Below, piece after piece: positions 4,628 through 11,082 of a stretch of DNA of 28,397 bases. The notes beneath the pieces are model-generated. The model searched no databases and was not told the DNA's origin. It saw only the letters and a program-made list of their open reading frames with translations. The DNA lies in the IMG/VR virus record IMGVR_UViG_3300006162_000043, positions 1-28,397 of that record; one strand, given 5' to 3'. The position numbers and the translations under genes are program-made. The stretch's first letter is position 1, and every line of letters starts with the position of its first letter. Source of the DNA: a virus.

Positions 4628-4691
4628 GTCATTGATCCATAAAAGAAAAATACACTTTTCGGTAAAGTTACAAATTGTTACACTTTAGGTC

Positions 4692-4719
4692 TTGACCTTC
4701 TCCGGCAGACCTGTATTAT
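4692..4719 (+). promoter_or_regulatory. Sigma70-like promoter TTGACC-16-TATTAT for the large RNA
   Basis: The -35 TTGACC is at 4692-4697 and the -10 TATTAT at 4714-4719, with a 16-bp spacer. The expected start at about 4725 coincides with the first base of the long terminal helix of the downstream RNA. A second TATTAT occurs at 4753-4758 and a TATAAT at 4914-4919 inside the RNA; either could be a secondary start. Confidence 0.6.
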
Positions 4720-4724
4720 GTGCG

Positions 4725-5396
4725 TTGTCGGTTGCTCTAAAGAACTGACCTGTATTATAGGTGTCAATAAGGATGCATTTCGTGGGTGGCGCCACCTTCG
4801 ACCGCACGCTGGCTGGAAACCAGCAATCCGAATAGACCGCCTCTTCCAGGAGGAATCAGGGATGATGCCGTTACCGGCCCCTGGCAGGTCAGGTCTTTAG
4901 AGCAACTGGCTCATATAATGAGGGGTCTTTGGAGATAGATATGCGATGTAGCTAATTGACTATGATGAATAAATTAGATTAGTGTAGGAGTATCGGTTCA
5001 TGCCCTATGATCTTGGACGTATGTGCCATGCAGGCAAATGAACTGACAGCCTCCAAAAGATATAGAGTAGTTTTGGTATAGTGTTACGGGTTTCGGTGGG
5101 TTGGCCTGATAGAGCAGTATCAACCCACCACAAAATTTCACGGTAATCATGAAAAAAGTGGTTGCCAAGGTGTCAAAACGCATATATAGTGGATGAACGT
5201 AATTTCAACGCACAAGGATATACAGGTACTCAAAATGTTTTCGATACATAAACCCGCCACAATTAGTCTGCCATCGGAGTATCGCCAATCAGGCGATATG
5301 AATTGGCTCACCACGGGGGTTAGTGTCTAACAGATAGTACCACACCAACACAAGACACCAAACCCCCGAAATCGAAAGAAATCGGGGGTTTTGTTT
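4725..5396 (+). ncRNA. Candidate large structured noncoding RNA (about 670 nt)
   Basis: No protein gene can be supported here. The 5' domain is closed by a long helix: 4731-4752 pairs with 4885-4906 (one A-G mismatch) and extends through wobbles to 4727/4910, about 26 bp. Inside it lie a palindrome at 4785-4796, gctgg-aaa-ccagc at 4812-4824, cctc/gagg at 4840-4853, and caggg/ccctg (4857-4861/4879-4883) enclosing gccg-ttac-cggc. Further 3' are gttcat/atgaac (about 4996-5043), ccaaaa/ttttgg (5053-5058/5071-5076), ggtgggttg/caacccacc (5095-5103/5121-5129) and tatcgcc/ggcgata (5280-5286/5292-5298). A strong intrinsic terminator ends it. Size, ornateness and position beside phage tRNAs recall GOLLD and ROOL RNAs. 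Identity with either is not shown. Confidence 0.7.
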
Positions 5397-5397
5397 T
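5361..5397 (+). terminator. Intrinsic terminator of the large RNA
   Basis: The stem aacccccga (5361-5369) / tcgggggtt (5382-5390) is perfect, 9 bp, with a 12-nt A-rich loop. It is followed by a T-rich run (tttgttttt). This is the clearest rho-independent terminator in the window, and it separates the large RNA from the tRNA block. Confidence 0.9.
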
Positions 5398-5410
5398 TGT
5401 AGGGTTGTAT

Positions 5411-5481
5411 CGGGAGATTCGCGGAGGCCGGCAGTGTCCGGTAAGCCCGCCCAATCTCAAACGACAGAGAATCGCGTCCCG
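5411..5481 (+). ncRNA. Structured spacer element with alternative folds
   Basis: gagatt (5414-5419) pairs with aatctc (5453-5458), and gcgg (5421-5424) with ccgc (5447-5450), around a ccgg/ccgg hairpin (5428-5441). In a competing fold cggga-gattc (5411-5420) pairs with gaatc...tcccg (5469-5481) with a 3-nt bulge. It lies between the terminator and the tRNA promoter; no ORF fits. The function is unknown. Confidence 0.4.
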
Positions 5482-5497
5482 AGTAGTAAAGATTTCG

Positions 5498-5526
5498 TTG
5501 CCATGCGGCGAAATTTGCAGTATGCT
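5498..5526 (+). promoter_or_regulatory. Sigma70-like promoter of the tRNA block
   Basis: TTGCCA (5498-5503), a 17-bp spacer and TATGCT (5521-5526). Initiation would fall near 5532, about 19 nt before the first tRNA of the array. It is the best promoter candidate between the terminator and tRNA-Gln. Confidence 0.5.
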
Positions 5527-5550
5527 CATTACACAATTTGGAGTTTTTGC

Positions 5551-5624
5551 TGCCTCATGGTGAAATGGTATCATGACGGACTTTGAATCCGCGGTTCTCC
5601 GTTCGACTCGGAGTGGGGCTGCCA
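5551..5624 (+). tRNA. tRNA-Gln(TTG)
   Basis: The anticodon loop is ctttgaa (TTG). The acceptor pairs except position 1-72 (T-T). Discriminator G and CCA are encoded, as in bacterial tRNA-Gln. The T arm ctccg-ttcgact-cggag is perfect. This is the first tRNA of the array. Confidence 0.88.
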
Positions 5625-5699
5625 TATAAATGGTTACTACCCGGTCGCGTGGGCCGACTGGGAGGGACGTGTATACGCTCCGTTAGTGACCATCTATAT
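5624..5699 (+). ncRNA. Candidate stable RNA between the two Gln tRNAs
   Basis: Positions 5624-5638 pair with 5685-5699 (15 bp with one mismatch and one G-U). Inside, cccggtc (from 5640) pairs with gactggg (5656-5662) and a second stretch contains gtatac palindrome pairing. The size (about 76 nt) and position recall the non-tRNA stable RNAs (C and D) of the T4 tRNA cluster. There is no anticodon and no CCA. Confidence 0.5.
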
Positions 5700-5709
5700 G
5701 GCGACATGT

Positions 5710-5791: not shown

Positions 5792-5883
5792 GGAAGGTGA
5801 TGCAGTGGCGTTGGTGCCGCGACCAGCCTTGAAAACTGGGTCCTGCGAAAGCGGGTGGGGTTCGACTCCTCCTCCTTCCTCCA
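5792..5883 (+). tRNA. tRNA-Ser(TGA)
   Basis: A 92-nt type II tRNA with a long variable arm (cctgcgaaagcggg). The anticodon loop cttgaaa gives TGA. The acceptor is ggaaggt/tccttcc, with position 7-66 mispaired, and CCA is encoded. The T stem has one end mismatch. Confidence 0.85.
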
Positions 5884-6288: not shown

Positions 6289-6299
6289 GTAAAGTTTTT

Positions 6300-6384
6300 T
6301 GCGTGTGTGGCTGAAAAGCATGGGAAGTCCAGGGCCGGTGCACCGGGTTCCTTGGAAGAGGTTCGAGTCCTCAACACGCAGCCA
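6300..6384 (+). tRNA. tRNA-like element without a recognisable anticodon loop
   Basis: The acceptor tgcgtgt/acacgca is perfect, with discriminator G, encoded CCA and a T arm with the ttcgagt loop. The D-like stem is ggct/agtc. No 7-nt loop with U33 can be placed in the middle. Instead 6328-6334 pairs with 6349-6356 (one bulge), continuing into the palindrome ccggtgcaccgg (6335-6346), a long arm with a 4-nt loop. Its 85-nt size resembles a type II tRNA, but the decoding arm is replaced. Confidence 0.6.
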
Positions 6385-6391
6385 AGTTTTT

Positions 6392-7243: not shown

Positions 7244-7260
7244 TAAACAAGGAGACCATG

Positions 7261-7500
7261 ATGGGAGTGGAAGATATATTGAGTGTGCGAGGCATTGTCA
7301 AAGCAATCACCTACAGAATTCTCGCAACGATATCGACCTTCTTCATTTCGTGGATCCTGACAGGACACTGGATCGTGGCATCCAGTATCGCCCTCCTAGA
7401 AATCGTCATCAATACAGTGATCTTCTATTTCCATGAACGAGCGTGGAAGAAGATTAGGTGGTTCAAAAAGAAGGATGTGAATTCACAGATTTTCAAGTAG
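7261..7500 (+). CDS. DUF2061-like small membrane protein
   Basis: 79 residues. VKAITYRILATISTFFISWI, the following TGHWIVASSIALLEIVINTV and the segment FYFHERAWKKIRWF match the DUF2061 pattern: a KxxTYR start, two transmembrane segments and a YYxHERxW end. The biochemical role of the family is unknown. I prefer the second ATG (7261) because AAGGAG at 7249-7254 then has a 6-nt spacing; the first ATG at 7258 leaves only 3 nt. The gene lies between tRNA-Lys and tRNA-Asn and is probably co-transcribed with them. It is an inner-membrane protein. Confidence 0.8.
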   Translation: MGVEDILSVRGIVKAITYRILATISTFFISWILTGHWIVASSIALLEIVINTVIFYFHERAWKKIRWFKKKDVNSQIFK

Positions 7501-7646: not shown

Positions 7647-8270
7647 ATGAAAACTCAAAAGACAGGACTCGACCTCTACAAAGAACGAGGCGAGAATACG
7701 GCACTATTCGCAGAGCCTACGAATGTCTTGAGTAACATATCATTTTTCGCGGCAGGGTTGACAGCACTACCATTTTGTAACGGATGGGTTTCAGGACTAC
7801 TAGCAGCAGGTTGCATCCTTGTCGGCATCGGATCAACGTTGTATCATGCATATCCCAAGCCCCTCACGAAACTTTGCGATGTTTCTGCAATCGTCGCCTG
7901 GGTTCTGTTCTATCTGTTTTGTTGGTCGCACTATTTCATGGGTTTGAACTTCCTGTATTCAGGAGGAATCATTATAGGATTTGTTCTGGCTTCTTTGCTG
8001 TTTCTCCGCAAGTATTCAGGACTACTGAACGGCTCTTCGGATTATTTGCCTGTCATCGCAGTCCTTCTTTTCAGCGGTGCAGCAGGTTGGTATAAGACGG
8101 GACACCCGCACCTGATTATTGCGTGTATCATCGCAGCAATCTCGCTGGTGTTCCGAGTCATCGACAATGATGTGAAGTTGAGTAGCGGCACACATTTTCT
8201 TTGGCATATCATGAATGGTTTTCTGATGGCGCAGTTGACAATCTTCATCGCCATCAATGTGTTGAACTAA
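7647..8270 (+). CDS. Alkaline-ceramidase-like (CREST family) membrane hydrolase
   Basis: 207 residues with about seven hydrophobic spans. The zinc-site pattern of alkaline ceramidases is complete and correctly spaced: Ser63-x3-His67 in GSTLYHAYP, Asp78 eleven residues later, and His183-x3-His187 in GTHFLWH. In human ACER3 the equivalents are S77, H81, D92, H217 and H221. The N-terminus (YKERGENTALFAEPTNVLSN) resembles the N-terminal calcium-site region of the family and its bacterial members. Known members cleave amide bonds in ceramides; other CREST proteins act on other lipids or as receptors. The substrate here is unknown. No close SD is obvious before the ATG at 7647. It is flanked by tRNA-Asn and tRNA-Asp. 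Confidence 0.85.
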   Translation: MKTQKTGLDLYKERGENTALFAEPTNVLSNISFFAAGLTALPFCNGWVSGLLAAGCILVGIGSTLYHAYPKPLTKLCDVSAIVAWVLFYLFCWSHYFMGLNFLYSGGIIIGFVLASLLFLRKYSGLLNGSSDYLPVIAVLLFSGAAGWYKTGHPHLIIACIIAAISLVFRVIDNDVKLSSGTHFLWHIMNGFLMAQLTIFIAINVLN

Positions 8271-10719: not shown

Positions 10720-11082
10720 ATGAAAGAGCCTCTATTTTCCATCACCGCCAAGGACTGCGATTGGTCCTACACCAAGGGCACCGGTTCTGGCGGACAAAAG
10801 AAGAACAAAACCTCTTCAGCAGTACATTGTATGCACCGCCCAAGCGGAGCCCATGGTTATTCTGAGGCATCAAGAAGCCAACACGATAACAAGAAAGAGG
10901 CTTTCGACAAGATGGTTGCGACGAATGAATTCCAAACATGGTTGAAGATGGAAATCATGCGACGTTCCGGCGATAAGGCTCAGATTGAAGCCTATGTGGA
11001 ACGAGAATTGCGCAACATCAAGATTGAAGTAAAGAAGGAAGGTGTTTGGACGCCAGTTTCGGAAATTGAATTGACACACTAA
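10720..11082 (+). CDS. Stand-alone GGQ peptidyl-tRNA hydrolase domain (release-factor-like)
   Basis: 120 residues. GTGSGGQKKNKT (20-31) is the GGQ loop of class-I release factors, which triggers hydrolysis of peptidyl-tRNA in the ribosomal P site. The next block (HRPSGAHGYSEASRSQHDNK) is also typical of the RF-1 domain. The codon-recognition domains of RF1/RF2 are absent, so it resembles ArfB/PrfH-type rescue factors. Unlike ArfB, the C-terminus is not strongly basic. The start at 10720 is about 10 nt after tRNA-His. It probably frees stalled ribosomes during infection (inference). Confidence 0.88.
   Translation: MKEPLFSITAKDCDWSYTKGTGSGGQKKNKTSSAVHCMHRPSGAHGYSEASRSQHDNKKEAFDKMVATNEFQTWLKMEIMRRSGDKAQIEAYVERELRNIKIEVKKEGVWTPVSEIELTH

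Follow-up and report, generated by a model that had tools for sequence, protein, structure and literature searches.

The region at positions 5162-5397 of the window (the whole stretch of DNA that was analysed, a 28.4-kb IMG/VR virus record from a T4-like phage) is quite probably a ribosome-mediated transcription attenuator of the trp/his type heading a phage tRNA array, and translation of the leader peptide encoded in it appears, from comparison with its relatives, to set whether transcription ends there or continues through the tRNA genes. At the level of sequence, the comparison of homologues shows a conserved promoter, a selected ORF, mutually exclusive covarying hairpins and a fixed site 5' of tRNAs. 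We infer translation of the ORF in infected cells, the role of its Trp codon as the sensor and the physiological signal, and the direction of the switch would follow from co-transcriptional reasoning and from the trp precedent.

The region lies downstream of the genes for the clamp loader, RegA and dCMP deaminase, and is followed by 32 predicted tRNA genes and then by the DNA polymerase (at most 73% identical to other IMG/VR contigs and at most about 50% to cultured phages). The original prediction had taken positions 4692-5396 for a single ornate RNA of 700 nt. These positions divide instead into three parts, 4727-4911, 4913-5155 and 5162-5397 (Table 1): the excess of structure in the 5' part is limited to 4722-4912, and the second promoter, kept in relatives, starts a separate conserved unit.

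Table 1. Features of the attenuator region and of its surroundings in the window
Feature	Positions	Strand	Basis
P0, sigma-70-like promoter preceding the 5' domain, TTGACC-16-TATTAT	4692..4719	+	Consensus scan 10/12; without comparative support
Self-complementary orphan domain with a multi-branched interior closed by a 26-bp basal helix	4727..4911	+	Fold z -6.3 on the plus and -5.4 on the minus strand; GC 0.55; no homologue found
Linker without structure excess	4913..5155	+	Fold z -0.03, like shuffled sequence
P1, putative attenuator promoter TTGCCA-17-TATAGT	5162..5190	+	Homologues: spacing 17 in 70/70 detected
Leader ORF, 31 aa, MFSIHKPATISLPSEYRQSGDMNWLTTGVSV	5235..5330	+	pN/pS and frame controls
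Segment 1, ACATAAACCC, possible partner of segment 2	5246..5255	+	Sequence; 1:2 partner-swap z -3.2
Hairpin A, TATCGCC/GGCGATA, within the ORF	5280..5298	+	Partner-swap z -6.1
Conserved Trp codon, predicted switch point	5304..5306	+	80/83 aligned peptides (among the matches listed); ribosome-position folding
Segment 2, antiterminator 5' arm, overlaps ORF end	5313..5329	+	Partner-swap z -10.2
Segment 3, common to antiterminator and terminator	5352..5369	+	Pairing analysis
Intrinsic terminator (3:4) with T-tract	5360..5397	+	Partner-swap z -16.1; window hairpin -18.4 kcal/mol
P2 promoter TTGCCA-17-TATGCT, before tRNA-Gln	5498..5526	+	Counterparts visible in relatives
Imperfect boxA-like element TGCTCATTACACAATTT	5523..5539	+	4 mismatches in the window copy when aligned ungapped
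tRNA-Gln(ttg), first gene of the array	5551..5624	+	tRNA prediction

Relatives of the conserved unit

The productive routes to syntenic relatives were DNA polymerase loci and an alignment of the metallopeptidase; a scan with a single metallopeptidase sequence was unproductive and dCMP deaminase gave non-syntenic loci. The first weak matches, to the 3' part of positions 4692-5396, lay directly before the first tRNA in two DNA-polymerase relatives (L065 and L082), and the gap between an orthologue of the neighbouring metallopeptidase gene and the tRNA array has an identical layout in L065, L030, L088, L089 and L021. A profile built from seven sequences yielded about 35 more copies, mostly in loci fetched by the metallopeptidase alone, and a motif scan of IMG/VR added at least 120 stretches, the motif including CATGG and part of hairpin A so that L177-L294 were thereby selected for both. 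After iteration there were at least 144 matches below 1e-6 and at least 102 distinct sequences, window included, and a profile made without the window has one significant hit in it, at 5162-5402 with E 6.2e-17.

The copies reside in related T4-like phages, and five records of 170-177 kb each hold a single one. A typical copy consists of a promoter (TTGCCA or TTGACA, 17 nt, TATAAT), a short ORF whose end forms the antiterminator's 5' arm, and a terminator that shares the 3' arm of that antiterminator. Among the matches listed, 92 copies have 350 nt or more of downstream sequence, and all of them have a tRNA no more than 350 nt away, and this is tRNA-Gln(ttg) in 81 of these 92 testable copies. 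DNA and peptide searches of INPHARED for the unit returned nothing convincing, one exact pattern of it had no match in 85,000 prokaryote genomes, and in the cultured phages Cr30 of Caulobacter and DLP6 of Stenotrophomonas, which have a related metallopeptidase, no annotated tRNA adjoins that gene. One locus (L021) holds two attenuator-like copies, at 4655-4805 before a tRNA-Leu and at 5100-5349 before a tRNA-Gln, which suggests, as far as the sequence of this one locus goes, that the unit can duplicate within a tRNA array.

A leader ORF conserved as protein

The original prediction described the region as free of protein and had itself counted a conserved ORF as evidence against it; such an ORF, selected and 31 codons long, lies inside the region and falls below the 50-codon cut-off of the first ORF list. 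Leader ORFs of 20-50 codons can hide in this way in seemingly protein-free phage gaps. In the part before the conserved Tyr, which lay outside the search motif, pN/pS was 0.31 in frame versus 1.50 and 1.45 in the shifted frames, and by this measure the ORF is under purifying selection and evolves as a protein. The whole peptide is strongly conserved (examples from relatives are MTNSIHKPFSQPTYHAITFNCADESWLFGSCVGE and (V)SLISHKPFTLQPEYRTVNCADSSWAITTGFCVDEGWDG), with the codons GAG TAT CGC around hairpin A invariant and the C-terminal codons differing between clades; it has no match in PHROG. The ORF begins at the expected transcript start in some relatives and after an AG-rich stretch in others, and in the window an in-frame ATG at 5193 would lengthen the peptide by 14 aa.

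The candidate control codon is one Trp at the predicted boundary, with no codon run, a pattern that is partly motif-selected and to which L137, without Trp, is an exception. The finding of Trp in 83/83 framed peptides is no independent figure because both the scan motif (CATGG) and the framing step, which required TGG, selected for it; nearly all of the loci that were collected independently of the motif do have Trp.

Mutually exclusive hairpins

RNAalifold applied to a plain MAFFT alignment predicted no pairs, probably because helix registers shift between clades, and we therefore used register-free tests in which the partners of a helix are exchanged between homologues, clades not counting as independent events in these tests. 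Over the homologues the 2:3 pairing reached -19.6 kcal/mol with its own partner versus -14.7 kcal/mol with swapped ones (z -10.2), and for both 2:3 and 3:4 none of 2000 permutations reached the own pairing; the 1:2 pairing was weaker (z -3.2 versus -2.3 for the control pairing). By the partner-swap measure the arms of the antiterminator and of the terminator covary, and the two helices are mutually exclusive because segment 3 is common to both, a result at odds with the one ornate fold that had been proposed. As to the many helices predicted originally, those of 5162-5397 are seen in homologues but those elsewhere are not. In the window the 2:3 duplex amounts to -24.2 kcal/mol. Segment 2 occupies the last codons of the ORF, its first G-run lying a median of 18 nt before the stop codon, and a median of 9 nt separates Trp from segment 2, less than in the trp leader of E. 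coli.

When a ribosome was simulated in the folding, segment 4 being still unmade, 90-100% of homologues formed the antiterminator as long as the A site had not passed Trp; the share dropped to 47%, 30% and 20% for an A site two, three and four codons past it. The Trp codon would therefore be near the last stall site able to open the switch, which is what a control codon should be. With the ribosome at the stop codon the terminator formed in 42/42 full-length folds. At equilibrium the complete leader folds preferentially into the terminator, both without a ribosome and for most of its positions, and the switch must therefore be kinetic.

Predicted switch and its possible signal

In the proposed mechanism RNA polymerase would start at P1 and a ribosome would translate the leader ORF, whose last codons form segment 2. 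A ribosome reaching the stop codon would cover segment 2, leaving 3:4 to pair and transcription to terminate before the tRNAs, and one stalled at or upstream of the conserved Trp would free segment 2 for the 2:3 antiterminator and let transcription enter the tRNA genes. The array would be boosted under impaired translation, for example when charged tRNA-Trp or tRNAs generally are short, and the second promoter with its boxA would provide basal, processive transcription. The unit could act as a gauge of tRNA supply, ribosomes stalling at the Trp codon or earlier when the host's tRNAs run low, are degraded or fall to cleavage by defence nucleases, and the phage then expressing its own array, a proposal that we hold with slightly less than even confidence; that this gauge is a property of a large clade of uncultivated T4-like phages is put forward with the same reserve.

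The reason for tRNA arrays in phages, and the timing of their expression, have been debated for decades, and recent work shows that defences directed against tRNAs can be evaded by means of phage tRNAs (PMC10264068, PMC11555353). If the mechanism is true, tRNA shortage would be linked directly to phage tRNA production in a clade represented by at least some 100 distinct sequences, a tRNA operon would be under ribosome-mediated attenuation, and phages would possess a circuit that senses the loss of translation.

The trp and his leaders of enterobacteria are mechanistically the closest known systems. They have in common with the phage unit a short leader ORF with a conserved Trp codon, the 1:2, 2:3 and 3:4 layout, an intrinsic terminator, an antiterminator sharing its 5' arm and a switch predicted to follow ribosome position. 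They control biosynthetic genes, however, whereas the phage unit precedes a tRNA array, and they carry a run of control codons where usually one candidate is found here. Unlike these leaders, the phage unit has hairpin A inside the ORF and a peptide conserved over its whole length, is followed by a second promoter with boxA, and occurs, among the matches listed, only in phage contigs. In the open literature, with subscription papers and preprints mostly outside its reach, we found neither leader-peptide attenuation nor boxA described for phage tRNA arrays. The unit is apparently undescribed, and would represent a familiar principle of regulation at a new site, with a conserved peptide family of its own.

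The attenuator might answer to a signal other than tRNA charging, either the arrest of the nascent peptide by a small molecule or host factor, in the manner of the TnaC or Erm leaders, or general ribosome availability. We regard this as unlikely, although the conservation of the entire peptide and the invariant codons around hairpin A would suit it, because no arrest motif was identified in the leader peptide and its C-terminal codons vary between clades. The conserved Trp is likewise a feature of the TnaC arrest peptide. TnaC works with Rho and free tryptophan; the phage unit differs from it in having an intrinsic terminator/antiterminator pair.

Second promoter and boxA before the tRNA genes

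In many relatives the gap between the terminator and the first tRNA contains a further promoter-like site, from which transcription would bypass the terminator, and in most relatives this gap carries TGTTCTTTAAAAATTT or similar, close to the rrn boxA of the E. coli consensus. Among the matches listed, boxA with at most 2 mismatches is present in 76 of 81 homologous gaps versus about 0.2 expected from shuffles. The arrangement resembles rrn-type boxA antitermination, which acts via NusB/S10, in that most relatives have TGYTCTTTAAMAATTT after a promoter and before stable RNA genes; it differs in that a phage tRNA array would be driven here and in that the boxA-like copy of the window is imperfect. 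With a second promoter and boxA past the terminator, the attenuator therefore probably modulates the array rather than being its sole control.

The presence of P2 and boxA after the terminator at many loci, like the purifying selection on the peptide, would also agree with the P1 unit being an independent small gene (a micropeptide and/or a stable RNA) of which the terminator is simply the end, the tRNAs being transcribed from P2 alone. We consider this quite improbable, since an antiterminator that served no need would not covary with the terminator arm across clades, nor would it overlap the end of the ORF. Against it stand also five loci (L030, L088, L089, L099 and L216) in which a tRNA begins 1-6 nt past the unit and in which the attenuated promoter is therefore the nearest one. 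The attenuator of the window itself is separated from P2 by about 90 additional bases (5400-5497, plus strand), which are absent in L065 and other relatives.

The orphan 5' domain

Upstream of the linker, the sigma-70-like promoter of the original prediction is present (P0), and so is the 26-bp helix said to begin at its expected transcription start, a 22-nt inverted repeat (4731-4752/4885-4906) extending to that length there. The GGTGGCGCCACC hairpin is part of this domain and is without comparative support. The relatives of the unit were seen without 4727-4911, and their conserved unit usually begins a median of 18 nt after the preceding open frame. No homologue of the domain was found in INPHARED phages, in plasmids or in the 293 collected sequences; exact 17-mers of it occur in four contigs without further similarity, and the ORFs of the 5' part have no PHROG match. 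Judged by these comparisons, 4727-4911 is an orphan insertion separate from the attenuator and found only in the window phage.

Tentatively, and leaning somewhat against it, we read the domain as a stable small RNA, some 185 nt long, that P0 would produce independently of the attenuator. Its compact fold (z -6.3 against shuffles for 4722-4912), a helix that starts where transcription from P0 is expected to, and a GC content of 0.55 versus 0.46 for the window speak for this reading, to which the domain brings no homologue and hence no covariation. The minus strand folds nearly equally well (z -5.4) because of the long inverted repeat, so that an RNA and a DNA palindrome are indistinguishable for 4727-4911.

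No terminator was detected between P0 and 5360, and one long transcript from 4727 joining all parts is therefore possible. Folding of 4722-5400 as a whole exceeds that of shuffles (z -5.3). GOLLD and ROOL are long phage RNAs, often near tRNA genes, whose ornate folds are conserved and which form cages by assembly (PMC12286853); our element is likewise phage-encoded, of undescribed function and next to tRNA genes, but its conserved part is only about 235 nt long, contains a selected ORF and matches none of their models. It has no family match in Rfam at gathering scores, and GOLLD, ROOL and OLE gave none up to E 10. That 4727-5396 in its entirety forms a single giant, ornate RNA like GOLLD or ROOL, as its size, its place by the tRNAs, its overall fold and the possible long transcript had invited one to think, is extremely improbable and was rejected, given the absence of an Rfam match, the middle without excess structure, the 5' part without homologues in relatives and the selected ORF in the 3' part. 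The selection on the ORF, together with the lack of a match to the corresponding Rfam models, also led us to dismiss a T-box and a small-molecule riboswitch.

The conserved unit corrects the giant-RNA reading without discarding all of it. What holds of the undescribed RNA element is its own promoter, the strong terminator at its end, strong structure, covarying homologues (for 5162-5397 but not for the 5' part) and a position at the head of a tRNA array; what does not is the giant size.

Further observations on the tRNA array

By comparison with its relatives the window lineage has gained several inserts here (5400-5497, 4727-4911 and 5193-5234). Within the tRNA array, positions 10720-11082 (plus strand) encode a small protein with a GSGGQ motif that matches the PHROG 'RF-1 domain peptide chain release factor' (E 1e-25); it is likely, from this match, a ribosome-rescue factor, which would suit the theme of stalled translation. 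Two further predicted proteins of the array (7258-7500 and 7647-8270, plus strand) comprise a DUF2061 membrane protein and one with a ceramidase match below cut-off.

Two tRNA-like stretches (5792-5879 and 6291-6386, plus strand) received no ARAGORN call. The first scored 37.3 bits with the Rfam tRNA-Sec model, below the cut-off of 47, and is likely a tRNA-Ser(tga). Between tRNAs of L065 (1457-1571) there is a sub-threshold match to a YrlA Y-RNA-like family (33 bits versus 69). The spacer between both tRNA-Gln genes of the window (5624-5706, plus strand) has CCATATA at its start and TATATGG at its end, and L065 (about 1227-1349) has an identically framed spacer with other sequence inside, so framed a spacer being possibly a conserved structured insert.
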